Both the position numbers and the translations under genes were made by a program. Shown here piece by piece: positions 5,414-22,788 of a stretch of DNA of 64,000 bases; the stretch's first letter is position 1, and every line of letters starts with the position of its first letter. This DNA is from Aquisalimonas lutea (lineage in GTDB: Bacteria; Pseudomonadota; Gammaproteobacteria; Nitrococcales; Aquisalimonadaceae): NCBI RefSeq assembly GCF_030409225.1, contig NZ_JAUFPK010000006.1, positions 1 through 64,000 on the forward strand, in the 5' to 3' direction. Below the pieces are notes generated by a model, which did not search any database, was not told where the DNA came from, and was given only the letters and a program-made list of their open reading frames with translations.

Positions 5414-6648
5414 ATGGTGCGTTCAACCGGTCGACGCAACAGTAGCCATGAGTTTATCCACCGGGTTGTGGAACCCGAAAGTTCTACGCGGTCGCTGGTT
5501 AAGGCGTTGGGCGATCGCGTCGAGATCGGCCTGGGAGAACCCAGAGAGATCCGTGCCCTTGGGGAAATACTGGCGGAGTAAGCGGTTGGTGTTCTCATTC
5601 GTCCCGCGTTGCCATGGACTCTGTGGGTCGCAGAAGTAGACTTTCACGTCCGTGGCCACAGTGAAGGCCTTATGGCTGGCCATTTCGCTGCCGCGATCCC
5701 AAGTCAGAGAGCGCCACAGCTCCCGCGGGAGTGCACGGATTTCCCGACTGACCGCCCCCACAACACTTGCCGTGTCCTTGCCGTCGACCTTTACCAGCAT
5801 CGTATAGCGCGAGTGACGCTCGACGAGCGTGGCGATGTGGCTATTCTTCGCGCCAGAGAGCAGATCCCCTTCCCAGTGACCTGGTATGGCACGGTCCTCT
5901 GCCTCTGCTGGGCGCTCTCGGATCGACACGGCATCGATGATCTGGCCGCGTGGTTGTCCTTCCGTGCTCGCAAGGCGTGAACGGCGCATCATCCGTCGCG
6001 AGCGCAGGTGCTTCATCAACTCCTTCTTGAGAACGCCGTGAGCCTGGACGAATAGGCTGCGGTAGATCGTCTCATGGGAGATCTGCATGTCAGAGTTGTC
6101 TGGATACCGAACCCGTAGCCAACCTGCGATCTGCTCGGGTGACCAGTCCAGTGCAAGTTTCCGTGCAACTGCCATTCGCAACTGTGGACGCGTCGCAAGC
6201 CGGCACGGCTTGGGACGATGGGCACGATCCCAGGCTTGGCAATCCGCCAGCGAAGCGCGATACGTGCCCCGAGCGTCGTGACGATTAATCTCCCGGCTGA
6301 GTGTGGACGGGGCACGGTTGAGGTTCGCGGCGATTCCACGAATCGATGCCCCGGTGGCAAGGCCACGCGAGATCTCCTCGCGCTCTGCAAGCGTCAGCGC
6401 CAAGTGCGATCGACGGCGCTCAGCGGGCGCGATGCCGCCACGCGCAGCGACGACACCATGAACGGATCCGGCATGCTTGCCCAGGGCGCGGCCAATGTCA
6501 CTGAGCGATTCCCCGCCTCTCCATCGTGCCCAGGCCTCGGCCTTCTGTTCGGCTGAGAGCCCCGGTCTCCCCATACGTGCCATATGCACCACCCCCCAAA
6601 AGCAACATTAGGACAAAGGGTGTTGCATCGATCAATTGAACGCACCAT
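5414..6648 (-). mobile_element. IS30-family insertion sequence
   Basis: The ends form an imperfect 27-28-bp inverted repeat. The left starts ATGGTGCGTTCAAccGgTCG and the right, read on the minus strand, starts ATGGTGCGTTCAAttGaTCG; both finish with GCAACA. The 1.2-kb unit contains one transposase gene. No convincing target duplication is visible in the flanks. The right end is followed directly by an AT-rich repeat array. Confidence 0.9.
5423..6583 (-). CDS. IS30-family transposase
   Basis: 386-residue DDE transposase. The N-terminal part has two HTH-like regions (SLSDIGRALGKHAGSVHGVV and SIRGIAANLNRAPSTLSREI). The catalytic core shows IPGHWEGDLLSG (first Asp), LTWDRGSEMASH (second Asp) and QRGTNENTNRLLRQYFPKGT (Glu), the classic IS30 signature. 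Length is normal (380-390). The ATG at 6583 was chosen over a GTG at 6592 because a G-rich ribosome site lies at suitable distance. The gene fills the element and appears intact. Confidence 0.95.
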   Translation of the reverse strand: MARMGRPGLSAEQKAEAWARWRGGESLSDIGRALGKHAGSVHGVVAARGGIAPAERRRSHLALTLAEREEISRGLATGASIRGIAANLNRAPSTLSREINRHDARGTYRASLADCQAWDRAHRPKPCRLATRPQLRMAVARKLALDWSPEQIAGWLRVRYPDNSDMQISHETIYRSLFVQAHGVLKKELMKHLRSRRMMRRSRLASTEGQPRGQIIDAVSIRERPAEAEDRAIPGHWEGDLLSGAKNSHIATLVERHSRYTMLVKVDGKDTASVVGAVSREIRALPRELWRSLTWDRGSEMASHKAFTVATDVKVYFCDPQSPWQRGTNENTNRLLRQYFPKGTDLSGFSQADLDAIAQRLNQRPRRTFGFHNPVDKLMATVASTG

Positions 6649-6669
6649 TCCCTTTTTTAGGAAAAAATG

Positions 6670-6705
6670 TTATAACTATTATAACGGTTATAACAATTAT
6701 AAAGT
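6670..6705. repeat. Tandem 9-bp AT-rich repeats (iteron-like)
   Basis: Four consecutive units follow the pattern TTATAACNN (TTATAACTA, TTATAACGG, TTATAACAA, then the degenerate TTATAAAGT), with a fifth decayed unit TATATAACG. The 9-bp period is short for plasmid iterons. Such arrays can bind replication or regulatory proteins or nucleoid silencers. Confidence 0.6.
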
Positions 6706-7097
6706 TATATAACGCATATAAGGTAGAGCGTCTTTTTGAGCGAAACACTGTGGGTGTTGGCGCGGGTTGGGCGAAAAAGCTGCTGCCAGCGATGGCAGTT
6801 TCGATGCCTTACGGGGCACTTTGCCTGCCTGGGCGGGCAGAAACGGTGTCAGTACCGGACTGTGGCCTTGATGATGGCCATATTCGGTTCGCATTGGACA
6901 TTGCGCATACGCTCCGATGCTCGCAGAGCTGCGAGCGGAAGCTCGGACGATGTCACTCTCGACGACAGCGACGTTTTGTACAAACTCTGGTGGTATTCGG
7001 GCGATGAAAGCGTCGGGGTCAGTGAGGCAAATGCAAGGAGCGGTGTCACCGGGCGATTCGACTGCTGTTGTCTCGGTGCTCAGTGACAAGAGATTAG
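6706..7097. other. Region without a supportable gene
   Basis: Several overlapping open frames exist on both strands, but none has a clear ribosome site or protein pattern. The minus-strand frame continuing from the frameshifted copy at 7098-7313 runs through here to about 6697 with no recognisable domain. Confidence 0.35.
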
Positions 7098-7313
7098 CTA
7101 CAACCGGCGGGGAATCATCTCGGATAGCCGTGATGCGTGACCGGAATGGGGCGGGCCATCTTTGGTGCCCCTCGTGGATTTCTCGTTCGCGGCCGAATCC
7201 CATGACATCCATGAGGTGCCACGCAACAAAAAAACGAAATCCGCGGTGCGCAGCGGGCCGTGAATAACAAGGGGATCGACATCGCAGGGGCCGAGGAATT
7301 CGAATCGGTGCAT
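7098..7313 (-). pseudogene. Partial, frameshifted copy of the 85-residue gene at 7410
   Basis: It begins MHRFEFLGPCDVDPLVIHGPL, closely matching LHRFEFLGSHGVEPLEIAGPL in the neighbouring gene. After that the similarity continues only in another reading frame (AWHLMDVMGFG versus AWHLADALGLG). The frame switch falls at a run of seven A residues (7228-7234, plus strand). The copy also lacks the neighbour's N-terminal 30 residues. It is therefore a degenerate tandem paralogue, unless slippage at the A-run restores the frame. Function unknown. Confidence 0.5.
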
Positions 7314-7409
7314 TGCCGGTTCGTCGTTGCCCCGATGCTCGACGGTATGTTGGCGCAGTCGATGTGCGAGGAAAGAAGCGACAGATGGTGGAGGACTTCG
7401 TGGAGGTGG

Positions 7410-7667
7410 TCAGCTTCGAGCCTGACTGACCTCAGCCAGCTCGGGCGGTTGCCCGAGGCCCAGGGCATCCGCGAGATGCCATGCGATGCATAGCAGATGC
7501 TTGAGTTCCAGCGGCCCTGCGATCTCAAGCGGCTCGACGCCGTGGGAGCCTAGGAACTCGAAACGATGGAGCTCGTGGTCACCCGTGGTGTCCTTGGTGT
7601 AGCGCATGGACGCCACCGCGGGCGTAGGCATTCCGGTCTCAGCTTTGGTACCATAATTCGTAGGCAT
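7410..7667 (-). CDS. Small hypothetical protein (85 residues)
   Basis: Starts MPTNYGTKAETGMPTP after an AGAGGA ribosome site. The conserved part shared with its broken neighbour is HRFEFLG..GVEPLEIAGPL...AWHLADALGLG. No family is recognised, and there is no signal peptide or membrane helix. It lies 65 bases after the exonuclease gene, outside a 16-bp motif (7703-7718) that recurs in front of the integrase gene at 17156. It could be the last gene of that operon or be separately transcribed. Confidence 0.55.
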   Translation of the reverse strand: MPTNYGTKAETGMPTPAVASMRYTKDTTGDHELHRFEFLGSHGVEPLEIAGPLELKHLLCIAWHLADALGLGQPPELAEVSQARS

Positions 7668-7702
7668 AAGTCCTCTTCTATTTTTACCGTTCGAGAGTTC
7701 GC

Positions 7703-7718
7703 TTGTGTCTAATCTCGT
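7703..7718 (-). repeat. 16-bp repeat, copy 1 (inverted relative to 17126-17141)
   Basis: On the minus strand this reads ACGAGATTAGACACAA, identical to plus-strand 17126-17141. Copies point toward the following gene in both cases (35 and 14 bases before the start codons). They may be a shared 5' regulatory element, or terminal inverted repeats of a unit spanning 7703-17141. Confidence 0.6.
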
Positions 7719-7720
7719 TT

Positions 7721-7748
7721 TACCCCGGGCCCTCACCCGGGGTTTTTC
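7721..7748 (+). terminator. Terminator-like hairpin at the exonuclease 3' end
   Basis: CCCCGGG-ccctca-CCCGGGG followed by TTTTT on the plus strand forms a 7-bp GC stem with a U-run. It overlaps the last codons and stop of the minus-strand exonuclease gene. As oriented, it would stop rightward transcription from running antisense into that operon. No plus-strand gene obviously ends here. Confidence 0.5.
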
Positions 7749-8260
7749 TTGCGCATGAGATACGCTGTCAGAAGCGCTCTCACGTCATCCTTCGCCCTAT
7801 GCGGCCGTAGGCTCCGGTCGTCCCGGGAAATGGCCTCACGCAGGCGCTCCATTGCCTGTATGGGTGCCTCGGAGACATCCGAGAAGAGCTCGTAGGCGGC
7901 CAGGAGGCGTGGGTAGTCGCCTCTGGCAATCCATGCCCCCGAGACCATCCAGAGGATCTCGAGCCAATGCGGATCGAAGGCGATCGCGTCGCAGTACATC
8001 GGCGCCCCCTGGGTTCCGGCCCTGAGTCGGCTGATGATCACGCCCGCGTCCTCCCCGTGCTGCTCCAGGTAGTCGATGGACAGCCCATGGAGCTCTTCGG
8101 CCCGTGGATCCCAGGAGTCCATATCGAACTCAGGGTGCGGGCGCACAAGCGCCCCATTGATGGTCCCATCGCGCAGGCTCCAGGCGATCTCCACGGGGAA
8201 GCTCCCGGGCTCGAGGCCCGAGGCTTCGATGTCAAGGAAGCACGGAAGGGCCTCAGTCAT
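7733..8260 (-). CDS. DEDDh-type 3'-5' exonuclease-like protein
   Basis: 175 residues with an RNase H-fold exonuclease pattern. Motif I is CFLDIEASGLEPGSFPVEIAW (Asp and Glu metal ligands, residues 9-11) and motif III is HRAKDDVRALL (His and Asp, about residues 153-158). An acidic motif II candidate (CDAIAFDPHWLEILW) lies between. This resembles short DnaQ/RNase-T-like nucleases acting on DNA or RNA ends; the substrate is unknown. The gene overlaps the upstream coiled-coil gene by 8 bases, so the two are probably translationally coupled. It is the fourth gene of a small accessory operon. Confidence 0.75.
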   Translation of the reverse strand: MTEALPCFLDIEASGLEPGSFPVEIAWSLRDGTINGALVRPHPEFDMDSWDPRAEELHGLSIDYLEQHGEDAGVIISRLRAGTQGAPMYCDAIAFDPHWLEILWMVSGAWIARGDYPRLLAAYELFSDVSEAPIQAMERLREAISRDDRSLRPHRAKDDVRALLTAYLMRKKNPG

Positions 8261-8669
8261 GCTTGTTGTCGCTCCGCGCTAGCGCAAGTTCAACCCGCAG
8301 GAAGCGATAGTCCCGGTAGGCCTCGAGTTGCTCGTGGATCTCCAGTTGCAGGCTGTCCATAAGTCGCGCCATCTGGTTGATCAGGCGCTGGTTATCGTCA
8401 GCCTGAGTGGTCGTATGCATGTGATCAGCGAACTCGAGGACCGCCTGCTCGCTCAGCCCGGCGTTTTTCTCACGCTCTTCCTCCAGTTGTTCCTCGAGAT
8501 GCTTGATGCGGCGGCGAAGGCGCATCGCTTGGGAGACACCCCCGAAAGCCTCCGGCGCCTTGTCCTCGAAGCCCCAGGGGTTCTTCCCAGGTGGGACCGT
8601 GTTGGACGGCAGGTCGCCCACCTCGCGCTCGAGAAGCCCGAGCGTGGCATAGGCGATTTGGTGCATCAC
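8253..8669 (-). CDS. Hypothetical coiled-coil protein
   Basis: About 138 residues. The centre is a strongly charged helix (RLRRRIKHLEEQLEEEREKN, about residues 50-70) predicted as a coiled coil. A second helical stretch holds NQRLINQMARLMDSLQLEIH. No catalytic motif is seen. The start is uncertain: GTG 8669 and ATG 8666 lack a nearby ribosome site. The strong AGGAGG at 8693-8698 is ideally placed for an in-frame CTG at 8687, which would add six residues. It is coupled to the downstream exonuclease by overlap, suggesting a complex or shared process. Confidence 0.7.
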   Translation of the reverse strand: MMHQIAYATLGLLEREVGDLPSNTVPPGKNPWGFEDKAPEAFGGVSQAMRLRRRIKHLEEQLEEEREKNAGLSEQAVLEFADHMHTTTQADDNQRLINQMARLMDSLQLEIHEQLEAYRDYRFLRVELALARSDNKHD

Positions 8670-8710
8670 GCGGTCTGCGAAGTCCAGAGGCGCCTCCTAG
8701 GTGGCTTGCG

Positions 8711-8794
8711 TTACTGCGTAAAGGCGAGAACCCAATGGGCGCCCATGTACAGAAACATGGCGGTCACGACGATGCGATCGAGCGCTTTCAGCAT
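8711..8794 (-). CDS. Tiny membrane peptide (27 residues)
   Basis: Encodes MLKALDRIVVTAMFLYMGAH followed by WVLAFTQ: a short basic start and one hydrophobic helix. It has its own ribosome site (GAGGT, 5 bases upstream) and begins 7 bases after the preceding peptide gene. It ends in TQ like its neighbour, and like the small peptide at 16341 (TQY). Function unknown. Single-helix peptides of this size can be toxins, holin-like proteins or membrane anchors for partner proteins. Confidence 0.55.
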   Translation of the reverse strand: MLKALDRIVVTAMFLYMGAHWVLAFTQ

Positions 8795-8801
8795 AAGGAC
8801 C

Positions 8802-8909
8802 TCACTGGGTTGCGGCGTAGGTCATTGCGGAGCACGACAGCAGGAGACAACCGAATGCTGCCAGCGCATGCGTCACGGGTCCGCTCAGGATTGCGACAAC
8901 AATCTCCAT
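8802..8909 (-). CDS. Tiny membrane peptide (35 residues), first gene of operon
   Basis: Starts MEIVVAILSGPVTHALAAFG and ends SAMTYAATQ, a single hydrophobic helix with two Cys (GCLLLSC). A very strong ribosome site (AGGAGGACGCA) precedes the ATG at 8909. It is the first gene behind the promoter at 9050-9078, followed by a second tiny membrane peptide, the coiled-coil protein and the exonuclease. No homologue is recognised. Confidence 0.6.
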   Translation of the reverse strand: MEIVVAILSGPVTHALAAFGCLLLSCSAMTYAATQ

Positions 8910-8975
8910 TGCGTCCTCCTAAGGGTGGCTTGCGGCTTACTGAGGCGCCGCGTGTGCGGCAAAAGGGGCATCACT

Positions 8976-8989
8976 GGACCCTTGGGTCC
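8976..8989. promoter_or_regulatory. Palindrome in operon leader
   Basis: GGACCC-TT-GGGTCC is a perfect 6-bp dyad. It lies in the 5' leader between the promoter (9050-9078) and the first peptide gene (8909). It can act as an RNA hairpin or as an operator downstream of the promoter. Confidence 0.4.
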
Positions 8990-9049
8990 TAGAGTGCAAA
9001 GGTTGGGCTTGTGAGGCGGTACTCGAAGAAAACCTTTCATTATTACATA

Positions 9050-9078
9050 AGTATATAAAGATGCAACACTCTTGTCAA
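9050..9078 (-). promoter_or_regulatory. Strong sigma-70 promoter of the peptide/exonuclease operon
   Basis: On the minus strand TTGACA (9073-9078), a 17-bp spacer and TATACT (9050-9055) make a near-consensus promoter. The predicted start near 9043 gives a leader of about 130 bases. Two GCGCGT-N2-ACGCGC palindromes lie just upstream. Confidence 0.75.
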
Positions 9079-9089
9079 CCTGGTTCTTT

Positions 9090-9103
9090 GCGCGTAAACG
9101 CGC
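9090..9103. promoter_or_regulatory. Operator-like palindrome, proximal copy
   Basis: GCGCGT-AA-ACGCGC, perfect dyad, 12 bases upstream of the -35 box of the 9050-9078 promoter. An almost identical dyad starts exactly 63 bp further upstream. Confidence 0.5.
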
Positions 9104-9152
9104 GAACGCGCGCGAGAGACAACACAGGATCCCCAGGGAGCTTGCGCTTCTC

Positions 9153-9166
9153 GCGCGTACACGCGC
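9153..9166. promoter_or_regulatory. Operator-like palindrome, distal copy
   Basis: GCGCGT-AC-ACGCGC. The start-to-start distance to the proximal copy is 63 bp, about six turns of B-DNA, so both face the same side of the helix. That fits cooperative binding or looping by one regulator, possibly the HTH protein at 16444. Confidence 0.5.
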
Positions 9167-9479
9167 TGGTCTCGCGTAGAGAAGAAAAAGGGTATCCGGA
9201 TTAATTGGTTGATAGCTCCCCAATATGATGTGGCATCTATTCCTGTGCTCTCCGGATTATTCGGTTGATAGAATTAGGATGCTGAGCGGTCTTGTGCAAC
9301 CAGCAGCGCTGCCTTATCGATCAATGATCGTCCAATGTCGCTAGCCAACAGATGATCGTAGTAGCTAGCTTTTGCGATTCATGTGCCCGCTACCAGGATA
9401 CGGCTGGTTTGGGGCTGTTGCGCTCCGTCCTCGACCGGCCATAGGGGTATCGGGCTAGCGCCGCTCGCTGAGCGATAGC

Positions 9480-10346
9480 TCAATCCACCGTGCTGCGCAG
9501 CGTCCTGATCAGCAGCTGATAGAGGCTGTCGACGGCTTCGTTGCCCTGAGAGGCCTGACTGCGATAGGCCGCCACCGCCATGGGCTCCAGCGGGCCCAGA
9601 CCATGCTTGCCGCCAAGGATCTCCAAGTGGGGCGGGGCACTGCACCGCGTCAACACGGCGACGGCAAGGCCGCTCTCCACCGCAGCGATCTGCCCTGCCA
9701 GGCTGGAGCTGTTGTACACCACCCGGTAGCGGCGTCCCTGCAGAGCCAGGGAGTTGATGGCACTGCGCTTGGCGAGGCTGGCGCTCTCGTAGACAGCGAT
9801 GGGCAACGGGTCGTGCCGCCAGGTAGGAAACTCCGGCGAGCCGACCCACACCATCGGTTCATGGAACAGCAGGGTGCCGTGACGCGGCTGTTCCCGCGAG
9901 ACCAGTGCGAGGTCCAGGTCGCCATTCTCGACCCGCGGAATCAGTGCGGTCGACTGCTCGCAGCTCAGCTCGATCTCCACCGCGCCGTGCTGCGGCGCGA
10001 AGCGCTTCAGCACCGGAGTCAGGTAGCGTGCCGCATAGTCATCCGGCACGCCGAGACAGATATGCCCGGTCAGCACCCGGCCGTGAAACGCCGCCTGGGT
10101 CTCAGCGTGCAGGTCGAGCATCCTGCGGGCATAGCCCAGCAGCCGCTGCCCTTCCGGGGTGAGCTGCTGCGACCGAGGCCCTCGTTCCAGCAGGCGATGC
10201 CCCAGAGCGGTCTCCAGCTTCTTCAGCTGCATGCTCACCGCCGACTGGGAGCGATGCACCTCAGGGGCGGCGGCGGAGAGTGAGCCGGCGTCCACCACCG
10301 CGACGAAGCACTTGAGCCAGTCGATCTGCAGATCTTGGTAGGCCAT
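9480..10346 (-). CDS. LysR-family regulator (transposon cargo)
   Basis: 288-residue LysR protein. The N-terminal winged HTH reads WLKCFVAVVDAGSLSAAAPE then SQSAVSMQLKKLE (about residues 8-45), followed by a LysR effector domain. Start ATG 10346 places the HTH at the usual distance from the N-terminus. It is divergent from azlC-azlD, so it probably regulates that pair in response to an amino acid or related effector. This is inference from layout. It lies inside the ISL3 transposon. Confidence 0.88.
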   Translation of the reverse strand: MAYQDLQIDWLKCFVAVVDAGSLSAAAPEVHRSQSAVSMQLKKLETALGHRLLERGPRSQQLTPEGQRLLGYARRMLDLHAETQAAFHGRVLTGHICLGVPDDYAARYLTPVLKRFAPQHGAVEIELSCEQSTALIPRVENGDLDLALVSREQPRHGTLLFHEPMVWVGSPEFPTWRHDPLPIAVYESASLAKRSAINSLALQGRRYRVVYNSSSLAGQIAAVESGLAVAVLTRCSAPPHLEILGGKHGLGPLEPMAVAAYRSQASQGNEAVDSLYQLLIRTLRSTVD

Positions 10347-10459
10347 ACGCTGCCACATGAATTCGATTCTCGAATATCTAATAGCAAAATCATTCGCTTT
10401 CATCAAGAGGTGCGCCGCGGCATAGTGACGGCCATGTCATGAGACAGGAGGAGTACGGC

Positions 10460-11188
10460 ATGACCAACGAGATGGCTAGTGAGGAGGCGGCACTGCATCG
10501 TCTGGACGGGGCGCTAACGTGGCAAGGGTTCAGGGAACTGTTACCCATCTCGCTGTTTGTCATCGTCTTCGGCGCTGCCTTCGGCCTGGCGGCGACTCAG
10601 GCTGGGCTGAGCGATGCGTCCATCGTCATCATGAGCGCCCTGGTTTTCGCGGGTGCTGCACAGTTCGCGTCTCTGGAGTTGTGGGGGCCACATATCCCGC
10701 TCTTTACGATGATGCTCACCGTATTCGCGATCAATGCCCGGCACCTGCTGATGGGCGCTACGCTCTCCCCCTGGTTGCAGCCACTCAAGCCGGCGAAGCG
10801 CTACGGCGTGATGCTGGTGGCTTCCGATGCCAACTGGGCCATGGCCATGCAGGCGTTCAGCCAGGGCCGGCCGGGGCTGGGGCTGCTGCTGGGCGGTGGT
10901 ATCGCCCTATGGAGCTTCTGGGTTCTTGGCACGTGGCTGGGTCTGTACTTCGGCAACGCCGTGAGCAACCCCGCGAGCCTGGGACTGGACATGGTGATGG
11001 GTTGCTTCCTGCTCGCCATGGTGGTGGGCAGTGAGAAGAACCTGCGCATGCTGGTGATCTGGGCGGTGGCGGCGGGCGCTTCCCTGCTGGCCTATCGCTA
11101 CCTGCCGGAAAACAGCCATGTGGTCGTGGGCGCCATCGCCGGTGGCCTGGTCGGCCTCTTTTGGGGGAGTCGTGACCATGAGCATTGA
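10460..11188 (+). CDS. azlC: AzlC-family transporter subunit
   Basis: 242-residue membrane protein of the AzlC/YgaZ family, which with AzlD exports branched-chain or related amino acids. The family pattern is clear: an early helix PISLFVIVFGAAFGLAATQA, then SALVFAGAAQFASLEL, INARHLLMGATLSP, and several C-terminal helices. Start ATG 10460 follows an AGGAGG site. The stop overlaps azlD by 11 bases, coupling the two subunits. As cargo on an ISL3 transposon it could protect against toxic amino-acid analogues; this is inference. Confidence 0.9.
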   Translation: MTNEMASEEAALHRLDGALTWQGFRELLPISLFVIVFGAAFGLAATQAGLSDASIVIMSALVFAGAAQFASLELWGPHIPLFTMMLTVFAINARHLLMGATLSPWLQPLKPAKRYGVMLVASDANWAMAMQAFSQGRPGLGLLLGGGIALWSFWVLGTWLGLYFGNAVSNPASLGLDMVMGCFLLAMVVGSEKNLRMLVIWAVAAGASLLAYRYLPENSHVVVGAIAGGLVGLFWGSRDHEH

Positions 11189-11486
11189 GACAGGCAACCC
11201 GAGCGCGCTCGCCATCATCCTGATCATGGCGGTGGTGACCCTGGTGACTCGCTGGGGTGGCGTCTTCGCGATGTCCTTCGTGCCCATCGGCTACCGCGTC
11301 AAACGGTTCATTCACGCCATGTCCGGCTCGGTGCTAGTGGCGCTGCTCGCGCCGCTGGCGATCACCGGTGACAATGGCGCCCGTCTGGCCCTGCTGACCA
11401 CCGCCGTGATTATGCTGACGCTGAAGAAGCCACTGCCAGCGATCGCCGGCGGTATTCTGGTGGCGGCACTGTTCCGTCAGATGTAG
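11178..11486 (+). CDS. azlD: AzlD-family transporter subunit
   Basis: 102-residue partner of AzlC with about four hydrophobic helices. Typical AzlD features are VVTLVTRWGGVFAMSF early, the VKRFIHAM..SVLVALLAP middle and LTLKKPLPAIAGGILVAALF near the end. The ATG at 11178 lies within the end of azlC. It is the last gene before the transposase. Confidence 0.9.
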   Translation: MSIETGNPSALAIILIMAVVTLVTRWGGVFAMSFVPIGYRVKRFIHAMSGSVLVALLAPLAITGDNGARLALLTTAVIMLTLKKPLPAIAGGILVAALFRQM

Positions 11487-11627
11487 CCATACCCCAGCGC
11501 CACGGGCGCGCTGCGTTTTCTACATAAATGTCGAGCAGCGCCCAGCTTGTCATGCTGGGCTCTCTTGAACCAGTTAATCCAGACACCCGGGGCTAGATGA
11601 AATGGTGAACCTCTCAGGGAGAGATGT

Positions 11628-12929
11628 GTGACGAACCTGCCCAACAATGTCCTGCATTTGCCGCAATATAATATCCTGAACACTAAACAAGATGAGCATG
11701 ATCTCCACTATCAAATTGAAGCGCCTGAACCTCTAGCGTGCGAGGAATGTGGCGTTGGGGGTGAGTTCGTCAGGTTCGGCAAGCGCGATATGGCTTACCG
11801 AGATCTGCCTATCCATGGCAAGCGAGTCACCCTTTGGGTTGTTCGCCGCCGCTACGTGTGCCGGGCTTGCGAGAAAACGTTCCGCCCTAAGCTCCCGGAT
11901 ATGGTGGATGACCACCGCATGACTCGCCGGCTCCACACTCATGTCGAGAAGGAAGCCTTCAACCACCCCTATGCCTACGTGGCCGATACCACAGGCCTCG
12001 ACGAGAAGACCGTCCGCGAGATCTTCAAGAAGAAGGCCGAGTTCCTCGCAGCCTGGCACCGCTTCGAGACGCCTCGCTGCCTGGGCATCGACGAGCTGTA
12101 CCTGAATCGCCGTTACCGCTGCATCCTGACCAACCTGGAGGAGCGCACCCTGCTGGACCTGCTCCCTGGTCGCCAACAGGATGCGGTGACCAGGCGCCTC
12201 ATGAACATGACCGACCGCCACAAGGTGGAGATCGTCAGCATGGACATGTGGAAGCCCTACCGGGCGGCGGTCCAAGCGGTGCTGCCACAAGCCCGTATCG
12301 TGGTCGATAAGTTCCACGTCGTGCGCATGGCCAACGATGCCATGGACAGCATCCGCAAGGGCCTCAGGAAGGAGCTGACGCCCAATCAGCGCCGAACCCT
12401 CAAGGGTGACCGGAAGATCCTGCTGAAGTGCGCTCACGACGTCTCAGACCGCGAATGGCTCATCATGGAGACCTGGACTGGGGCCTTCCCCCAGCTCCTG
12501 GCGGCACACGAGCACAAGGAGCGGTTCTTCCACATCTGGGACTGCACCAACCGGCGTGACGCCGAGAAGGCGCTGGCTCAATGGATTGACGACATCCCGC
12601 AGGGGCAGAAGGAAGTCTGGAAGGATCTCGTCAAAGCTGTCAGCAACTGGCGTGAGGAGATGCTGACCTACTTCGAGGCCGACATCCCGATCACCAACGC
12701 CTTCACGGAGTCGATCAACCGACTGGCCAAGGACAAGAACCGCGATGGCCGGGGCTATTCGTTCGAGGTGATGCGCGCTCGGATGCTCTACACCACCAAG
12801 CACAAGAAGAAGTCGCCGCAGACCAAGGAATCCCCGTTCCTGGGCAGGGCCACCATGACCTACGGCAAGAGCCTTCCCCCGGTCGAGAAGAACTACGGCG
12901 TCGATCTATCACCCTTCCGGACAGATTAG
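11628..12929 (+). CDS. ISL3-family transposase
   Basis: 433-residue transposase starting at GTG 11628 after a GGGAGA site. The N-terminal zinc-finger region has paired cysteines (CEECGVGG, CRACEKTFRPKLPD), typical of ISL3 family TnpA. The DDE core includes LGIDELYLNRRYRC, VSMDMWKPYRAAV, IVVDKFHVVRMAN and the late ITNAFTESINRLAK motif. Length is normal and the frame is intact, so the surrounding transposon may still move. Confidence 0.94.
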   Translation: MTNLPNNVLHLPQYNILNTKQDEHDLHYQIEAPEPLACEECGVGGEFVRFGKRDMAYRDLPIHGKRVTLWVVRRRYVCRACEKTFRPKLPDMVDDHRMTRRLHTHVEKEAFNHPYAYVADTTGLDEKTVREIFKKKAEFLAAWHRFETPRCLGIDELYLNRRYRCILTNLEERTLLDLLPGRQQDAVTRRLMNMTDRHKVEIVSMDMWKPYRAAVQAVLPQARIVVDKFHVVRMANDAMDSIRKGLRKELTPNQRRTLKGDRKILLKCAHDVSDREWLIMETWTGAFPQLLAAHEHKERFFHIWDCTNRRDAEKALAQWIDDIPQGQKEVWKDLVKAVSNWREEMLTYFEADIPITNAFTESINRLAKDKNRDGRGYSFEVMRARMLYTTKHKKKSPQTKESPFLGRATMTYGKSLPPVEKNYGVDLSPFRTD

Positions 12930-15845: not shown

Positions 15846-16124
15846 ATGAACACCCGAACGCTGAAGAGGGAGCTCAAACGCCGCAGCGCCATCGAAGCCG
15901 TGATCGGTCACATGAAAACCGACGGCCGCATGGACCGGTGCCGACTGAAAGGTGCTCTGGGCGATGCGCTCAATGCGGTGCTCGTGGCTGCCGGGCACAA
16001 CATCCGGCTCCTGCTCCGGGCGATGCCCGCTCTTTTGCGCCGAATACTTGGGCGGCTACGGGCCGTCTTCGACACCGGAATCCGTAATCAGAATCTCAAA
16101 CCCGGAATGCGGGCTGCCGCATAA
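15846..16124 (+). pseudogene. IS5-family transposase, C-terminal part
   Basis: Reads MNTRTLKRELKRRSAIEAVI followed by GHMKTDGRMDRC, GDALNAVLVAAGHNIRLLLR and a stop at 16124. This is the C-terminal catalytic-Glu region of the same transposase interrupted by the IS256-family element. It cannot be expressed as a functional protein. Confidence 0.88.
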
Positions 16125-16340: not shown

Positions 16341-16427
16341 ATGTCCTGGACGGTAATGGCAACCCTGGCTATACTGGCAACCGCGGCGTCCTGGTTTTGT
16401 GCCTGGTCGTCGCTCACCCAGTACTAG
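16341..16427 (+). CDS. Tiny membrane peptide (28 residues)
   Basis: Encodes MSWTVMATLAILATAASWFC followed by AWSSLTQY, essentially one hydrophobic helix. The ribosome site is weak. It ends in TQY, echoing the TQ ends of the two tiny peptides in the leftward operon. It is followed 16 bases later by the HTH gene. Function unknown. Confidence 0.45.
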   Translation: MSWTVMATLAILATAASWFCAWSSLTQY

Positions 16428-16443
16428 CCAGGAGAACCACACG

Positions 16444-16758
16444 ATGGCACATACGCGATACGACCTACGTGGAAGCGAGTACAAGGACCTCAGGAAACAG
16501 GCCGGCAAGATGATTAAAACCTATCGTCAGCAAGCCGGTATGAGCCAGATGGAAATGGCCAAGCGCCTGAACCTGGATTACTACACGTTCATCTCCCAGG
16601 TGGAGACTGGCGTAAGGCGGTTGCCCACCGAAGAGATCGAACACTGGGCCAGAGCGCTTGATATCCAGGATGTCCAGGGGTTCGCGCGCTCGCTTCTGCG
16701 TCATTACGATCCATTAATGTACGACCTGTGCTTCAAAAAGAAGGAAGAAGCGAGCTAA
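16444..16758 (+). CDS. XRE-family HTH regulator
   Basis: 104 residues with a Cro/C1-type HTH in the first half: KTYRQQAGMSQMEMAKRLNL then YYTFISQVETGVRRLP (about residues 23-58). ATG 16444 follows AGGAG. A plausible repressor of the surrounding divergent operons, given the palindromes found upstream of each; this is inference. The stop shares its last base with the start of the next gene (TAATG), so the two are co-translated. Confidence 0.8.
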   Translation: MAHTRYDLRGSEYKDLRKQAGKMIKTYRQQAGMSQMEMAKRLNLDYYTFISQVETGVRRLPTEEIEHWARALDIQDVQGFARSLLRHYDPLMYDLCFKKKEEAS

Positions 16759-17111
16759 TGCCACATTTACGGTACGAAAAGGGAGGGCGCAGGATAACGC
16801 GCTACACGGACGAGGCGGAAAGGACCGAATTCTCTCGCTTTTTGTCGCACCTCACGGATCTGGGGTACGACTACGAACACGAAACATCGACTCAAAAGGA
16901 GGGTGGCATTGAGTTTCTGCACTGGTCTTTCTATCTCAGCGCAGATGATTGGCCGGACCTTATTTTGTCGATTGCGACAGATAAAAGTGGGTCAACGTAC
17001 ACGGCGTACTGGCTAGGAGTGGACCATGGGCCGTGGACGAAAGCCCGCGATATGTTCCTTGAATTACCCGTGCTGAACATGCGGGACACGTATTATAAAA
17101 TGTTCAAATAA
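16758..17111 (+). CDS. Hypothetical protein (117 residues)
   Basis: Starts MPHLRYEKGGRRITRYTDEA and ends NMRDTYYKMFK. No signal peptide, membrane helix or known motif; the middle is rich in aromatic residues (FLHWSFYLSADDWPDLIL). It is translationally coupled to the HTH gene, an arrangement shared with toxin-antitoxin pairs and with phage regulator modules. No toxin fold was recognised. Confidence 0.65.
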   Translation: MPHLRYEKGGRRITRYTDEAERTEFSRFLSHLTDLGYDYEHETSTQKEGGIEFLHWSFYLSADDWPDLILSIATDKSGSTYTAYWLGVDHGPWTKARDMFLELPVLNMRDTYYKMFK

Positions 17112-17155: not shown

Positions 17156-18334
17156 ATGCCGAGCAAAACGGGCAGTATTGCACTGTACAGGAAAAAAGAT
17201 GCAGAGGGCCGCGAGTACGGCTCGTGGCTTCATGACTGCAAGATCAAGGGCCAGCGCCATCGCATTAACACAGGCACGGAGGACTATGGCAAGGCCTTTA
17301 ATGTGGCGGAGGAGGAGAAGGAAAAGCTTCGGCAGAAGGTTTTGCACGGGCGGCGCATGGACATGACCGTTGGTGAAGCGCTGGACGAGTACCGGCAAAA
17401 CCGCGTGCCACGCCTCAACGATCAATACAATGCGCTCCAGCGCCTGGACAAGCTGTCAGGGAAGGGCAAGCGGGGGGCCCGCTGGGGGCTGGATCTCGAC
17501 CTCAAGCTCTCGGACCTCTCTGTGCGACACATTGAGGAGCTTGTGCGCCAGCGCCTGAGCGAGGGCAACAAAGAGGGCACAATCAATCGAGAGTTAACCA
17601 CTTTGCAAGCCGCTGTCAACTACAGCAAGCGCCAGCTCGAGGCGGACGTGAACCCGAATCTTCGGTTCGAAAAGTTTACCGCGAGCGCGCGCCCGCGTGC
17701 GCTTGATGACGACGAGGTACAGCGCTTGCTGCACGAGCTGGACCCAAGCAAAGGCTATGTGGGCGGCTTGCGCTTCACCGAGCGCACGGGCCCGCTGAAG
17801 GATCGATCGCAGGACAACTATGATCTGGCCGTGTTCTTTCTGGACACAGGGTGCAGGTACAGCGAAGCGACTTATCTCCATTGGCGTGATGTCGACCTCA
17901 AGCGTGGGGTGGTACTGGTGTATCGAGAGAAGAGCGGCGGCAAGGTGCTGACCGAGCTCGCGATGACCCCGCGCCTCCAGGAAGTCATGGGGCGTAGGGT
18001 TGGCAACCGCAAGCACGGGATCCACTGGGTCTTTCCCAGGCGGGCGCCTACGGGCCACCCTGTGAATGAACGCAGGAGCGGCAATGGCACCGCCGGGATC
18101 GAGGCAGCGATGGAGCGCGCGGGCCTGAATGACCCGGCGATAGTAGAGAGATATGGCGTTGCGAGCACCAACACGCTGCGGCACACGTACGCCACCAAGC
18201 TTCTGAAGGCCGGCATGAGCGATAAGGCCGTGGCGACTCTGCTCGGGCACACGAACACCAATATGGTGAATCGCCACTATGGGCACTTATTGGCAAGCGA
18301 TGTGAGCCACGAAGCAGCGAGGCACCTAGGATAA
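17156..18334 (+). CDS. Tyrosine-recombinase integrase
   Basis: 392-residue integrase. An N-terminal DNA-binding part is followed by a core domain (about residues 85-175). The catalytic domain has box I TGCRYSEATYLHW (Arg), box II NTLRHTYATKLLKAG (His-x-x-Arg type), LLGHTNTNMVNRHYGHL (His and nucleophilic Tyr). All key residues appear present. A strong AAGGAGG lies upstream. It would catalyse insertion or excision of the island or of a smaller element. Attachment sites could not be assigned, although the tRNA-Glu at 22713 is a classic type of target. Confidence 0.93.
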   Translation: MPSKTGSIALYRKKDAEGREYGSWLHDCKIKGQRHRINTGTEDYGKAFNVAEEEKEKLRQKVLHGRRMDMTVGEALDEYRQNRVPRLNDQYNALQRLDKLSGKGKRGARWGLDLDLKLSDLSVRHIEELVRQRLSEGNKEGTINRELTTLQAAVNYSKRQLEADVNPNLRFEKFTASARPRALDDDEVQRLLHELDPSKGYVGGLRFTERTGPLKDRSQDNYDLAVFFLDTGCRYSEATYLHWRDVDLKRGVVLVYREKSGGKVLTELAMTPRLQEVMGRRVGNRKHGIHWVFPRRAPTGHPVNERRSGNGTAGIEAAMERAGLNDPAIVERYGVASTNTLRHTYATKLLKAGMSDKAVATLLGHTNTNMVNRHYGHLLASDVSHEAARHLG

Positions 18335-18429
18335 CCCGGGCCAAGCGCAAGGAAGTGCACGACAACGCAGGGACGCGCAGGGGAATCGAGAGCCCGGCCT
18401 GCGCGCAAGGCGTTCAGGTAAAGTGTTGA

Positions 18430-18642
18430 ACGCTTGTGAGGGACGGGTACCCCCTCCCGTATAGATGGGATATGAGCATCGGACCACCCAGCTCCGGGGG
18501 TCCGCTGTTCGTATACCAGGAAGGAAATCTAGACGTATTCGAGGAAGGATCGTGGGGAGCGGCGGGGCGTAGAGCCGCATAGCAACGTCCCCGGCAACTG
18601 ATTCACCGGCTCCTCCAAGGCGGTGTCAGGCCTATGTAGCGG
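18430..18642. other. Left arm of the 24-bp-TIR unit, no gene seen
   Basis: Sequence with short hairpins (for example GGGGTACCCC-like around 18450) and no supportable open frame. Confidence 0.35.
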
Positions 18643-18900
18643 TCAACGACATCGCCGGCCGCGATGGCTCTCCCGCGAGAGGATGCAGGATCGCATCTGC
18701 CTTGCCATCTTGGGCGGTACTTTATGCCTCAACTCGATGAACTCGGCACAATAGCAGTCTCTTAAGCGCTTCCCGGATCCGTAGGGGCACGGCCAATGAC
18801 CCTTCGGACGATCTTGTGCCAAGAGGGACAAGCAGCGCATGACGAGATCTCGCCGGCGAGGGACATCGACAACCTCAGCGTAAGCGGCAACGAGCCCGCT
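18643..18900 (-). pseudogene. SEC-C motif protein fragment
   Basis: The minus-strand frame reads ...RRRDLVMRCLSLLAQDRPKG then HWPCPYGSGKRLRDCYCAEF. The CPxGSGK(R)xxxC pattern is the SEC-C metal-binding motif found at the ends of SecA and in many small proteins. Upstream residues are low-quality and no clear start is visible. It looks like the C-terminal remnant of a longer gene. Confidence 0.45.
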
Positions 18901-18955
18901 GGGGCCGTGACCTCGAGGAGTTGCGCGCGGCCTGAGTCGGCAGTGTTTGCCGGCG

Positions 18956-19327
18956 GGCCTCGCCAACCGCGTGCCGCCGAAAAGCCTGCTGGGCAAGGCG
19001 ATCACCTATACGCGCAAACAGTGGCCCTAGCTCACGCGCTATCTCGAGCATGGTGAGACGGCGATCGATAACAACACCGCCGAGCGCGCGATCAAACCGT
19101 TCGTCATCAGGCGCAAGAACTGGCTGTTTGCCAATACGCCGGCCGGGGCCAAGGCGAGTGCCAGCCTATACGGGCTCATCGAAACGGCGAAGGTGAACGC
19201 CATCGAGCCCTACGGCTATCTTGCCCAGGTGTTCCGGGAGTTGCCGCAGCGCGGTATCGCCGCCGGTGATCCGGTCGATGATCTCTTGCCTTGGAATGTC
19301 GATCTGCCCGATCCAGCGGCCCGCTAA
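18956..19327 (+). pseudogene. IS66-family transposase (TnpC) C-terminal remnant
   Basis: The frame ending at TAA 19325-19327 contains LLGKAITYTRKQWP, an in-frame TAG, then [40 protein letters not shown] and [20 protein letters not shown]. These are the conserved last 120 residues of IS66 TnpC ([10 protein letters not shown]...RKNWLF...IETAK). The N-terminal three quarters are missing and a stop interrupts the rest. Confidence 0.85.
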
Positions 19328-19622
19328 TGCACGATCCGGGGCTCATCGTCCATGTGCGTTGGCTGTGACGCTTCCGTCGTGGGAGCGGACCAGGTAAGGG
19401 GCCGACCATCCCGAACCGTTGCGCTCGCGCACAGCTGGTCCCAGAGATTGTCCCGCCCCGAAGAATCATAGGCGAGGGCGAAGAGGATGGATGCGCTGCC
19501 AAAGCTGCTTGACAGGCGCCCCGAACGGCCGCATCTTCAAGTTCAATGGATTGATGGCCCTGTCGGACGGACCCACACAGTCGGAGCCGGCTGACCTTGG
19601 CGTGCTCCCTCAATAGCACGAC
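19328..19622. other. Spacer before the secreted-protein gene
   Basis: About 295 bases with no convincing gene. No clear promoter for the downstream gene could be picked out. Confidence 0.35.
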
Positions 19623-21569
19623 ATGGTGAGCCTCATGCGTTCGCGACCCCCCTCATCCTGGATTGCCGGCCTCGTGATGCTCGCGTGCGCGGCAACCGCC
19701 ACTGTTGCCCAGGCCTCGCCCCCGGCGCTCGATACGCAGGAGATTGCCTATCTCGGTCGGCTCGCGGAGCTCGCCCGGGCGGATACCGTTGCCGCGATCA
19801 CAGCGAGCCGTGTGGATCAAAGCGGCCGGGATGCCGAGCGAGCGACCCCTAGCGGACTCGTGCTCGTCTCCATCGAGGGCGTGCCTGCTTTCGTCTATGA
19901 CCGCGACAGCTACTATTACATCACCGACCGTCAGCTCGAGTTCGTCATGCGCTGCCGGGGCGGGGGCGTCATCGACTTCTCCCTGATCGTCCGCCAGTAC
20001 CCGGGCGAGGTCGACGACGTCGTGCCCGTGCCTCCGGGTACGGAATACGAACTCCTGCTGATGCCCTACGGTCAGGATCTCGAGCGACGGCTGCCCGTGC
20101 AATGGGTTGAAACCTTCCCCAGTCACGACGTCGTGGCGCGTGTATCCGGCTCCGTGCGGGCGGATGACCCCTTTCTCCTGGCCCTGCGCGGAACCAGCAA
20201 CCTCCAGTACTCATTGAGTACGGCGGATGGCCAGCCATTGACAATGCGGGACGGCCAATACCTGACGTTGAGCGGCGGCCTTGATCTCAGCACCTTCCGC
20301 TCGGATGTCGCGCCCCTGCTCGAGCATTGCCGCACGGGCGGCAACGATCCATTGGCCTCACTGGACCTGGAGGCGTTGCGGGACTCGCAGGCCGCATCCA
20401 GCGAAGCGCCTGGGGCCACCCCGGAGCCGCTCGAGGTCGATCTCGACTTCCTGCCACGGAACCAGCAGCAGCGCTACAAGCGTGTTTTCGAGGGCCGCCC
20501 ACGGTCCTCGGAGACCCCCCTGGATACCGTGCTGCTCGATCATCTCGCCTTCCACACCGCGTACTGGGAGCAGTGTGCGGCCACCCCGGCCGGGCCGATG
20601 GACTTCTACACCACCCCGCCGTTTTCCCGGGCGCGCACGATAGGGCTGCTCAAGGACGATTATGCCGCGTTCGTGATCGCGGCCCTGGTCCATGCCCCGA
20701 TCCGCGCGCAGCTCTACGAGGAGAATATCCGGCCCGACTTCAGCCTCGAGGCCACGAATCGCCGACTCGGTGAGGTCATGGAGCGTCTCGCAAAGAACTG
20801 GCGTCGCGTGTTCGCGGGCACGGGCTGCTCCGGGGCGGTCTTCGAGCGCTTCCGGGGTAATATGCGTCAGGCCTTTCCCTATCTCGAGTATCGCGAGGGT
20901 GGTCGCGATGTGCTCGTGGATTTCGGGTCCCGTCAGTTTGAGATCAGGCTGCAACAGCCGCTTGCCATCGCCGCGGCGCGCCGAGCAGGCGCGGCGGAGG
21001 TAGGGTCGGTGAACCAGGGTGTGTTCAACGATAGCTACCCCAGCCTTGTGCTTCGCAGCATTGCCATCGGGGACTTCGCGCTCGCCGATCGGATCGAGGA
21101 GGAGTTCATCGCAACGGCGTCAAACCCCTTTGGCGGCAATCCGGACAATGCCATGACCAGGGCCCTTACGGCTCTTATGCACGCTGAGAAGTCGATGCGC
21201 CGGCAGGGGAACCTCATCGCGGCCTATGCCCTTGGCCGGCAACGCCTGCTCGGCGCCTGTGGCGAGCCGACCACCCACTACACGCAGGAAAGGATCTACT
21301 GGAGCGAGTACACAAACGGCCTGGGTCAGTATGTCGGCGGGTCGGCCGGCAGTCGCGTGCACAATGAGGCCCACGTGCCCACCAAGTTCAACGCCGTTAT
21401 CCAGCGGCAGAACTCGATCACGACCTCGAGCGTTCTGAGCTCGGAGATGGGCGCCATTCTCAGCAAGCTAAGCTGCGAAAGCGCCCTGAGGCAGCAGCTC
21501 GAAGACAATATGCTGGCCTACTTCAACGGCCATGCGCCGGTGCACGTTAAGGCACTCCCCGGCCGATAG
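19623..21569 (+). CDS. Large secreted protein of unknown function
   Basis: 648 residues. The start has a Sec signal peptide (MRSRPPSSWIAGLVMLACAA..., likely cut after VAQA), so the mature part should be periplasmic or exported. The rest is soluble, with several Cys (about Cys110, Cys236, Cys318, Cys401, Cys540, Cys621) that could form disulfides. No domain was recognised. ATG 19623 is used; an in-frame ATG at 19635 has a slightly better ribosome site and would still give a complete signal peptide. It lies inside the 24-bp-TIR transposon as its only intact large gene. Confidence 0.75.
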   Translation: MVSLMRSRPPSSWIAGLVMLACAATATVAQASPPALDTQEIAYLGRLAELARADTVAAITASRVDQSGRDAERATPSGLVLVSIEGVPAFVYDRDSYYYITDRQLEFVMRCRGGGVIDFSLIVRQYPGEVDDVVPVPPGTEYELLLMPYGQDLERRLPVQWVETFPSHDVVARVSGSVRADDPFLLALRGTSNLQYSLSTADGQPLTMRDGQYLTLSGGLDLSTFRSDVAPLLEHCRTGGNDPLASLDLEALRDSQAASSEAPGATPEPLEVDLDFLPRNQQQRYKRVFEGRPRSSETPLDTVLLDHLAFHTAYWEQCAATPAGPMDFYTTPPFSRARTIGLLKDDYAAFVIAALVHAPIRAQLYEENIRPDFSLEATNRRLGEVMERLAKNWRRVFAGTGCSGAVFERFRGNMRQAFPYLEYREGGRDVLVDFGSRQFEIRLQQPLAIAAARRAGAAEVGSVNQGVFNDSYPSLVLRSIAIGDFALADRIEEEFIATASNPFGGNPDNAMTRALTALMHAEKSMRRQGNLIAAYALGRQRLLGACGEPTTHYTQERIYWSEYTNGLGQYVGGSAGSRVHNEAHVPTKFNAVIQRQNSITTSSVLSSEMGAILSKLSCESALRQQLEDNMLAYFNGHAPVHVKALPGR

Positions 21570-22113
21570 CGACCGATGGAGGGCGGCCCTGGGGCAATAC
21601 CCACGTCCTGGATGTTCCGGCGAGCGCGAGGCCGCCGAGCGTCTGGACACGGAGGCCGTCTTTTTCGGGAGGCGGCCGGATGCGGCGCCGAATTGAGAAG
21701 GTCTTCCGGCACAGCGGACACCGGAAGCGAGGCGTACCGGCGGCACTTTGCCCGAAGCGCTGATAGGCGCCGGGATACGCGCGAATGTCGACATAGGCGT
21801 TGTCGCAGGCCGGGTTGGGACAGGTGAACTGGCCAGGCTGCCAATCGAGGATACGAACCGTGTCGCAGATGGCAGCGTTGCTTTTCAGCGGGATCGTCTC
21901 ACCGCAGCTGCGACAGCGGATTGAGGGCGCGATGCCCTTGCTGCCATCACCACCTCGAGGAGGCCGTCGATTGGTACCTGTGCGTAGGTAGTGCGGATCG
22001 TTGCGACTTAGCTCGGCAGGGACCCCGAAGTTGCTGCAGACGGGGTTCTTGCAGTGGTTCACCTGGATCCCCCGAGGGGGAAGGGATGTGGGGATGCCTG
22101 TTGTCTCTGCCAA
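21547..22113 (-). CDS. Zinc-ribbon, transposase-like protein (probably truncated)
   Basis: 188 residues with two successive zinc ribbons: CKNPVC...CRSC and CPNPAC...CPLC (the last in RFRCPLCRKTFS). Paired C-x4-C / C-x2-C ribbons ending in KTFS are typical of the N-terminal DNA-binding part of transposases. No DDE domain follows; the C-terminal 40 residues look random. The gene begins 80 bases inside the right terminal repeat of the 18406-22217 unit, where a transposase would be expected. It is likely the stump of that transposase. Its 3' end overlaps the convergent secreted-protein gene by 23 bases. Confidence 0.5.
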   Translation of the reverse strand: MAETTGIPTSLPPRGIQVNHCKNPVCSNFGVPAELSRNDPHYLRTGTNRRPPRGGDGSKGIAPSIRCRSCGETIPLKSNAAICDTVRILDWQPGQFTCPNPACDNAYVDIRAYPGAYQRFGQSAAGTPRFRCPLCRKTFSIRRRIRPPPEKDGLRVQTLGGLALAGTSRTWVLPQGRPPSVAIGRGVP

Positions 22114-22329
22114 ATTTTTGGCTGGCCATGTCTAGCGCCCCGATCTGTAACCCCCCGTTCAGTAGGGGGGTTTAGCCAGATCGGGGCGCATCGTCAACAC
22201 TTTACCTGAACGCCTTGGCCTGCGCGCCGGGTTTTCTTTTGCCCAAAGGTACAGCTCATAGCGAAATAAACCAGTGCTGTACGCGAATGGACAATCATGA
22301 ACTAACTCACGCTCAACACAGGAGGACCT

Positions 22330-22734
22330 ATGAGCGATAACCACGAGAAGCTAACACTCGCGTTCTACAAGCGGATCTACGGCGAGCCGAAGGATCGCCT
22401 GGAGGTGGAGCCCGCGCCGCGCGTGGAAGCTGCAAAGCAGCGCGCAAGTGAAGCTCTGGCCGCACTGGAGATGGCGGAAGTTTGCATCATCGAGGATGCG
22501 CAGGCGAAGGCCTCGGCCAAGGAAACCCAGGCCACCCAAGCGGATGAGAGTAGCGAGAGTGCGGCCTCTGAAGCAGGTGAGACCCGGGGGACCCCCGAGG
22601 GTACCGAAGGGGACTCGGGTTCCACCGAGAGGCACACCCAACAGCAGAAGCGTAAACAGCCAGCGAAGCGAGGAACGAAGGGAGAAACCCAGGAAAATCA
22701 GCAAGATGAAGATGGCGCTCCCACGGGGACTTGA
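22330..22734 (+). CDS. Hypothetical protein ending antisense to tRNA-Glu
   Basis: 134 residues starting MSDNHEKLTLAFYKRIYGEP after a strong AGGAGG site. The first half is plausible helical protein; the second half is low-complexity, charged and Gln/Glu/Thr-rich (SGSTERHTQQQKRKQPAKRG). The last 22 bases overlap the 3' end of tRNA-Glu on the other strand, so the C-terminus may derive from integration into the tRNA gene. No family is recognised. Confidence 0.5.
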   Translation: MSDNHEKLTLAFYKRIYGEPKDRLEVEPAPRVEAAKQRASEALAALEMAEVCIIEDAQAKASAKETQATQADESSESAASEAGETRGTPEGTEGDSGSTERHTQQQKRKQPAKRGTKGETQENQQDEDGAPTGT

Positions 22735-22788
22735 ACCCCGGTTTCCGCCGTGAGAGGGCGGCGTCCTGGACCGCTAGACGATGGGAGC
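22713..22788 (-). tRNA. tRNA-Glu (anticodon CTC)
   Basis: 76 nt on the minus strand. Acceptor GCTCCCA pairs with TGGGAGC, then discriminator G and an encoded CCA. The D arm (TCGTCTAGCGG), anticodon loop CCCTCTCACGG and T arm GGTTCAAGTCCC are standard for glutamate tRNA. It marks the border between accessory DNA (left) and core genome (right). Confidence 0.96.

Follow-up and report, generated by a model that had tools for sequence, protein, structure and literature searches.

A probable non-autonomous member of a passenger-carrying transposon family that prefers the loops of intrinsic terminators, found in Aquisalimonas lutea

The stretch of DNA analysed here, hereafter the window, comprises 64,000 nucleotides of Aquisalimonas lutea (assembly GCF_030409225.1, contig NZ_JAUFPK010000006.1, positions 1 to 64,000) and contains a transposon-like unit of 3,812 bp at 18406-22217. 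The ends of the unit, located by sequence scan, are 24-bp terminal inverted repeats, the left one at 18406-18429 on the forward strand and the right one, which is the transposase end, at 22194-22217 on the reverse strand; they are complementary at 24 of 24 positions and constitute the longest perfect pair within the 4.1 kb scanned. Each end is abutted by an exact copy (9/9) of a 9-bp target duplication, GCCTGCGCG, at 18397-18405 and 22218-22226. We conclude that this copy very probably belongs, as a non-autonomous member, to a family of DDE transposons that often have passenger genes and that insert preferentially into intrinsic terminator loops.

The original prediction had taken the identical repeats and the duplication on both flanks as signs of a transposition event, and this view is upheld by the exact ends and duplication, as well as by the existence of relatives that combine related ends with a complete transposase. 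Because the 9-mer is common in the GC-rich window (8 occurrences seen versus 5.0 expected), the evidence lies in its abutting position and not in its mere presence; by our own arithmetic, the chance of finding it placed exactly at both outer edges is about 1e-5. When up to three mismatches are allowed, the 24-mer of the ends occurs at only these two places in the 16-contig, 4.2-Mb genome of the strain and none of 368 further genomes of the class contains it; the exact 24-mer has no match in viral contigs. The possibility that the 24-mer is a dispersed non-mobile repeat, which had been named as a potential refutation, was therefore rejected. A composite transposon was also rejected, as each long part of the unit was found just once in the genome, and so was a vertically inherited locus, as neither the cargo gene nor the flanking island DNA was found in 13 genomes of the same taxonomic family.

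The unit contains two convergent genes. On the forward strand, an open reading frame (ORF) at 19623-21569 encodes a passenger protein of 648 residues that has an N-terminal signal peptide when judged by eye, in agreement with the secreted protein described in the original prediction. On the reverse strand, an ORF of 188 residues at 21547-22113 was recognised, by homology to the long transposases described below, as the N-terminal part of such a protein; the zinc-ribbon stump that had been proposed is therefore real. Its residues 1 to about 140 (22113 down to about 21694) correspond to the two zinc ribbons of the transposon family, with all eight zinc cysteines kept. The homology stops after about residue 140, the helix-turn-helix and the catalytic core being lost, and the remaining tail is unrelated. 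No convincing further transposase piece was found in the unit by tblastn, and no full transposase was found in the genome of the strain or in the 13 genomes of its taxonomic family, so that the suggestion of a driving transposase elsewhere found no support there. Since only about 140 N-terminal residues are left and no other source was found in the genome, the unit is a non-autonomous derivative, which could now be mobilised only by an external transposase. The unit also includes, at 19031-19324 on the forward strand, a 98-residue remnant of the C-terminal part of an IS66 transposase (PF03050, E 1.2e-14; PF13817, E 5.9e-11), a decayed secondary insertion, and the interior is therefore not one single unit. 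With a decayed element inside, the relatively recent movement suggested in the original prediction found no support. The original prediction had named neither this remnant nor the transposon family, its terminator target and the hairpin described below.

Among 72,556 plasmids, 13 records encode long proteins whose N-termini match the stump (best E value 4e-16). Four of these proteins, encoded in Rhizobium, Polaromonas, Acidovorax and Pseudomonas, are 521-614 residues long and carry the annotation 'hypothetical protein'. A scan with the alignment of these four, in which 84,980 species were represented by one genome each, yielded 29 loci; most of their ORFs are 557-705 residues long, that of L034 reaches 840, and a few are broken or cut. 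The copy on a Pseudomonas aeruginosa plasmid (L011, CP136985) is a unit of 2,010 bp with perfect 24-bp ends, CAAGCCGTTCGCTTAAGGTGTTGA, and a 9-bp duplication, CCTGTATCG; 19 of 24 positions of its ends are identical to those of the window unit (CAAGnCGTTCnnnTAAnGTGTTGA-like, about 24 bp). Similar ends are present in many, not all, members, and are more divergent in Rhizobium, in L034 and L066, and in the dfrG units discussed below. The full-length element with a complete transposase that the original prediction proposed to look for thus exists in relatives with related ends, and was not found in the genome of the strain itself. A uniform scan of 32 loci, from which L013, L024, L041, L066 and L067 were excluded because their transposase start was unusable, detected related ends together with an 8-10-bp duplication at 17 loci, that of the window included. 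When left ends were paired with unrelated DNA as a control, a duplication was obtained in 1 of 192 trials, and repeat-like pairs without duplication were common by chance (150 of 192). Further cases of ends plus duplication outside the uniform scan are L034, L066 and L082. Among 15 fresh loci, ends plus duplication were found at five (L123-L127); the search for the left end extended no further than 330 bases from the match, and L128 may therefore have been missed. Of the ten others, eight belong to one genus (g279) and yielded no ends.

These eight g279 loci (L129-L136, from eight genomes) contain transposase-like ORFs of 493-526 codons whose matches are distributed over more than one frame, and the C-terminal piece of six of the eight includes a stop codon; no terminal repeats were found, and the upstream sequence is similar across several of the genomes. 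They are perhaps an old, immobile relative. With regard to individual members, blaGES-1 and aac(6') genes are located no more than 5 kb from the intact L011. Related elements occupy the same site sequence in Spongiibacter (L035) and on a Marinobacter plasmid (L082), and the transposase of the former is, judged by eye, apparently interrupted by an IS21-type pair of genes.

The catalytic part that the window copy has lost was studied in a relative, the transposase of L019, which was modelled with AlphaFold2 from an alignment with 18 relatives (predicted local distance difference test score, pLDDT, 86.1; predicted template modelling score 0.88). The best PDB match of the model is the ISCth4 transposase (Foldseek E 2.9e-4; Z score 12.2, root-mean-square deviation (rmsd) 3.8, 235 residues aligned), followed by the Tn5 transposase (Z score 10.6, rmsd 5.4, 276 aligned). 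According to this model, which concerns the relative and not the window protein, the transposase has the core of a DDE transposase. In the one alignment made, D220, D380 and D514 (L019 numbering) are the invariant acids and E528 is nearly invariant; the metal site may be formed by D220 and D380 together with either D514 or E528. A sequence search of the PDB with the transposase returned almost only eukaryotic zinc fingers among the best 60 of 191 matches.

Units of the family have sizes of 1.9-6.5 kb. Those of L009, L011, L019, L031 and L082 (1.9-2.0 kb) have space for the transposase alone; in the longer units the genes next to the transposase vary from unit to unit. L023 of Geobacter sp. OR-1 (5884-10623) carries an EcoRI-type methylase and a GmrSD/HNH restriction enzyme, which form a complete-looking type II restriction-modification pair. 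Single passengers include Mrr in L036 (Salinarimonas), a Fic protein in L022 and a Sel1-repeat protein in L030. L017, from a metagenome-assembled genome of Azonexus (5857-12345, 6.5 kb), has four passenger ORFs, among them NERD, DUF4268 (PADLOC PDC-S11, a candidate defence family) and DUF6035 proteins, the last with a sub-threshold match to CoiA. Short secreted or membrane proteins (secretion judged by eye) are encoded in L025, L027, L028, L034 and L065, and L016 and L035 contain IS21-like genes instead (by eye). The family behaves like an insertion sequence (IS) that carries passengers.

The family also extends to the Firmicutes: matches to the P. aeruginosa transposase occur in 131 plasmid records, 90 of them from Enterococcus, with about 26% identity among the matches listed. 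The gene dfrG, the trimethoprim-resistance gene of staphylococci and enterococci, is present together with a family transposase (WP_000163792) in a 3,276-bp unit with ends TAAGTAGTTCAGTTTTGGAGTAC on plasmids of Enterococcus, Staphylococcus and Lactococcus, the two genes being convergent like the stump and the 648-residue gene of the window. This unit matches 187 plasmid records, 88 of them over at least 80%. We examined 11 copies out of these 187 records (L083-L091, L080 and L081), and exact 9-bp duplications were found in eight, at seven distinct sites, one of which is occupied in both orientations (L087 and L088). L080 and L081 have no duplication and their left junction is identical to that of L091, and the exact right end of L090 was not found. 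Through this unit, dfrG gains a self-contained vehicle. In the excerpts of the literature that we consulted, the movement of dfrG is credited to IS257 and IS256 (PMC4923244), and the gene is linked with an unnamed 'additional insertion sequence' (PMC12540322).

As for the passenger of the window copy, the 648-residue protein probably acts as an accessory factor, either secreted or periplasmic. Its sole relative among the 72,556 plasmid records is encoded on pMAQU02 of Marinobacter nauticus (43.7% identity over 94%), where an in-frame upstream stretch reads, by eye, as a signal peptide; the best end-like matches near that gene are at chance level. The protein matched no Pfam, NCBIfam, PADLOC or PHROG model. 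No relatives were found in phages, in the 13 genomes of the taxonomic family, in the 368 other genomes of the class or in 397 other genomes of a sample of the phylum, nor in IMG/VR by a motif-based scan that covers close relatives only. A PDB sequence search gave weak, unconvincing matches only (best E 0.014), and a structure predicted without alignment was unusable (pLDDT 35.7). The absence of a family and of relatives from all these collections favours the view that the 648-residue protein is not a beneficial passenger at all and is simply inert, hitch-hiking DNA. However, the ORF is intact across its 648 codons, and the relative with 44% identity is located on a conjugative plasmid and has the signal-peptide-like stretch upstream of it. 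We therefore consider inert DNA a possible but rather doubtful explanation, and the accessory factor the better one.

Another shared feature is a long hairpin, variable in sequence from member to member, that lies between the start codon of the transposase and the end nearest to it. Its equivalent in the window spans 55 bp at 22135-22189 and separates the right end from the start of the transposase (-43.5 kcal/mol; z score -6.1), and z scores of -4 or lower were obtained for 22 of 26 members. In 12 of 26 members the inner edge of the transposase-side end has the sequence TTGAAA, and in 9 of 26 a box with at least five of six positions matching TATAAT is found 15-17 bases further inward, where the hairpin has its foot; a consensus scanner detected no promoter in the window region. 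A transcript from a promoter in the end would start inside the hairpin and would lack its left arm, whereas transcripts from outside would carry the whole hairpin. IS10 and IS50 are protected by such an arrangement. The hairpin of the family probably prevents the production of transposase from outside transcripts. The fact that the window copy retains this hairpin, as well as an intact stump ORF with its eight cysteines, could indicate that the stump is a working DNA-binding protein with two zinc ribbons, acting as a repressor or in partnership with related transposases. Yet the stump stops before the helix-turn-helix and continues into an unrelated tail, the -10-like box is poor, and the stump exists as a single copy. 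A working stump is thus improbable, and we regard it as the residue of a lost transposase.

The target of the family became apparent from the rejoined flanks, as most sites are hairpins. Stem arms of at least 5 around the centre of the duplication are present at 18 of 27 sites, versus 2.4% of 10,800 control centres; in this count L082 and L035 share one site, and L016 was cut one or two bases off. Terminator-like sites were further defined by two rules, of which rule 1 demands an unbroken stem and a T or A run, and rule 2 allows mismatches. These were applied to 31 sites, L082 (site of L035), L088 (site of L087), L080, L081 and L090 being left out and L016 being taken with a 10-bp duplication, and no positions from the short dfrG loci served as controls. 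Rule 1 is passed by 20 of the 31 sites, versus 43 of 5,400 random and 79 of 12,240 nearby positions. Rule 2 is passed by 22, versus 268 of 9,098 positions (2.9%) outside ORFs of at least 100 codons and 1,602 of 77,471 control positions overall. At these 22 sites, the centre of the loop lies within 0.5 nucleotides of the centre of the duplication in 17 cases and within 1.5 nucleotides in 20. The family prefers the loops of intrinsic terminators.

The window site passes both rules. Once rejoined, it reads CCCGGC-CTGCGC-GCCGGG-TTTTCTTTT with additional outer pairs, starts at 18388, which is 54 bases downstream of an integrase ORF, and folds with -20.2 kcal/mol in 34 bases, a value that is equalled or undercut by 0.33% of 3,000 random 34-mers of the window. 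According to this fold, the insertion split a presumed intrinsic terminator, all on the forward strand, into a left half at 18388-18405 and the duplicated loop, right arm and T run (TTTTCTTTT) at 22218-22235. A pattern scanner run on the sequence as it stands reported, for the right junction, nothing but a weaker stem (22214-22231), in which the end of the element replaces the left arm; it found 5 such terminator-like sites in the stretch, versus 2.5 expected.

It could be argued that terminators are not targeted, and that insertions there are simply the ones that survive selection after random insertion, because terminators are intergenic and harmless places and transposons are purged from genes. 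However, positions outside ORFs pass rule 2 at a rate of 2.9%, against 22 of the 31 sites; moreover, selection of this kind has to contend with the coincidence of loop and duplication centres to within half a nucleotide at 17 of 22 sites, and with the site that holds the dfrG unit in both orientations. We consider this explanation highly improbable, and maintain that the transposons prefer terminator loops.

Several results weigh against our interpretation. Firstly, rule 1 is failed by 11 of the 31 sites and rule 2 by L009, L019, L027, L035, L036, L084, L091, L126 and L127; of these, L027 does pass rule 1, L126 clearly forms a hairpin when judged by eye and L127 is a miss, and among the passing sites the A run of L124 is marginal. 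Secondly, the rules were devised after the first 26 sites were known, which leaves a fresh set of five, three of which pass each rule. Thirdly, no duplication was found at 15 of the 32 loci of the uniform scan, z scores of -4 or lower also occur at the opposite end in 7 of 19 members, and the -10-like box of the window matches at 3 of 6 positions. Finally, no function was found for the 648-residue protein, and the flanking island DNA has no match in those genomes of the taxonomic family that share the tRNA region, so that there is no natural empty site for comparison.

The anatomy of the units suggests how the family might work. An intact element would encode one long transposase, with two zinc ribbons, a helix-turn-helix and an RNase-H-like core. 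This protein would bind ends of about 24 bp and insert the element preferentially in the loop of a rho-independent terminator, thereby duplicating about 9 bp; host genes would be spared in this way. Many members hold passengers downstream of the transposase gene, some of them convergent to it. In the case of the window copy, a full or already reduced unit may have been inserted into the terminator of the integrase gene by a family transposase encoded in cis or acting in trans. Three quarters of the transposase, at its C-terminal side, would have been lost before or after this insertion, and an IS66 element would also have entered the unit and then decayed, leaving the gene of the 648-residue secreted protein.

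In a broader sense, we are inclined, with slightly more confidence than doubt, to the view that these elements form an undescribed and widespread family, present in Proteobacteria, Desulfuromonadales and Firmicutes, whose single long DDE-type transposase homes to terminator loops and which shuttles restriction-modification systems, candidate defence genes, genes of secreted proteins and the clinically important dfrG, the window copy being a stranded cassette that can be mobilised in trans. No description of the family was recognised in the literature surveyed, as judged by titles and the openings of abstracts. On the plasmid records examined, its transposases are labelled 'hypothetical protein' or 'insertion element protein', or lie where no gene is annotated, and as a consequence the elements and their passengers go unseen. 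The window copy thus exposes a transposon family that is mostly overlooked by current annotation.

The unit is located between two features of a presumed genomic island. One is the gene of the island's tyrosine integrase on the forward strand (17156-18334; PF00589, E 1.3e-23), whose presumed terminator is the target, and the other is a tRNA-Glu(ctc) gene on the reverse strand (22713-22788), the presumed border of the island; no tRNA-derived att repeat was found, except for one 12-mer. Just upstream of the integrase gene, at 16399-17111, an ORF with a helix-turn-helix overlaps an ORF of 127 residues without a family, which is perhaps the regulatory end of the island, and a C-terminal remnant of another DDE transposase is present at 15846-16121 (PF13751, E 1.6e-7). 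A low-complexity ORF of 134 residues (22330-22734) runs into the tRNA-Glu gene on the opposite strand and is perhaps not a gene.

The relationship of the family to known systems can be summarised as follows. The idea that the unit is an IS66-type element or a cassette mobilised by IS66, to which the remnant at 19031-19324 might point, is scarcely credible and was rejected, since the remnant is interior, the unit is bounded by other ends that match those of the long-transposase family, and the duplication is 9 bp, not the 8 bp of IS66. IS1 transposases (NF033558) resemble those of the family in having a zinc ribbon and a helix-turn-helix at the N-terminus, and a weak profile match was obtained for seven relatives (23.6-42.6 bits, with L022 at 42.6 and P0001 at 38.1, against a cut-off of 100), the stump being unmatched; duplications of 8-9 bp, as generated by IS1, are a further similarity. 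The family differs from IS1 in its single ORF of about 520-705 residues, its tandem second zinc ribbon, its ends and its terminator target. IS1595 transposases likewise have a zinc ribbon, and IS1595 elements are reputed for their passenger genes, but their ends and duplication length differ from those of the family. No match to the IS1595 transposase model was found for four members searched with Pfam or for seven members and the stump searched with NCBIfam, and a match to the shared zinc-binding domain model NF050000 stayed below cut-off. As the profile cut-offs of IS1 and IS1595 are not reached, the family is not filed under either. The transposases of IS256 (ISCth4) and Tn5 have a catalytic fold like that of the L019 model; however, no IS256 model scored above cut-off in the seven members searched with NCBIfam, and the family has tandem N-terminal zinc ribbons and a different target.

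With respect to the choice of target, p-MULT 4 and ISKra4-group elements are promoter-targeting and have a transposase of a different family, and Tn7 inserts at glmS. If our interpretation is true, the targeting of terminator loops is a distinct way to avoid harm to the host, comparable to the use of glmS by Tn7 and to the strategy of group IIC introns, and terminators provide the family with a near-harmless landing place that is always available. According to an excerpt of PMC3522654, group IIC introns also target rho-independent terminators. Those introns are retroelements that insert downstream of the stem-loop, whereas the family described here consists of DNA transposons that are inserted in the loop itself, with a duplication of the target.

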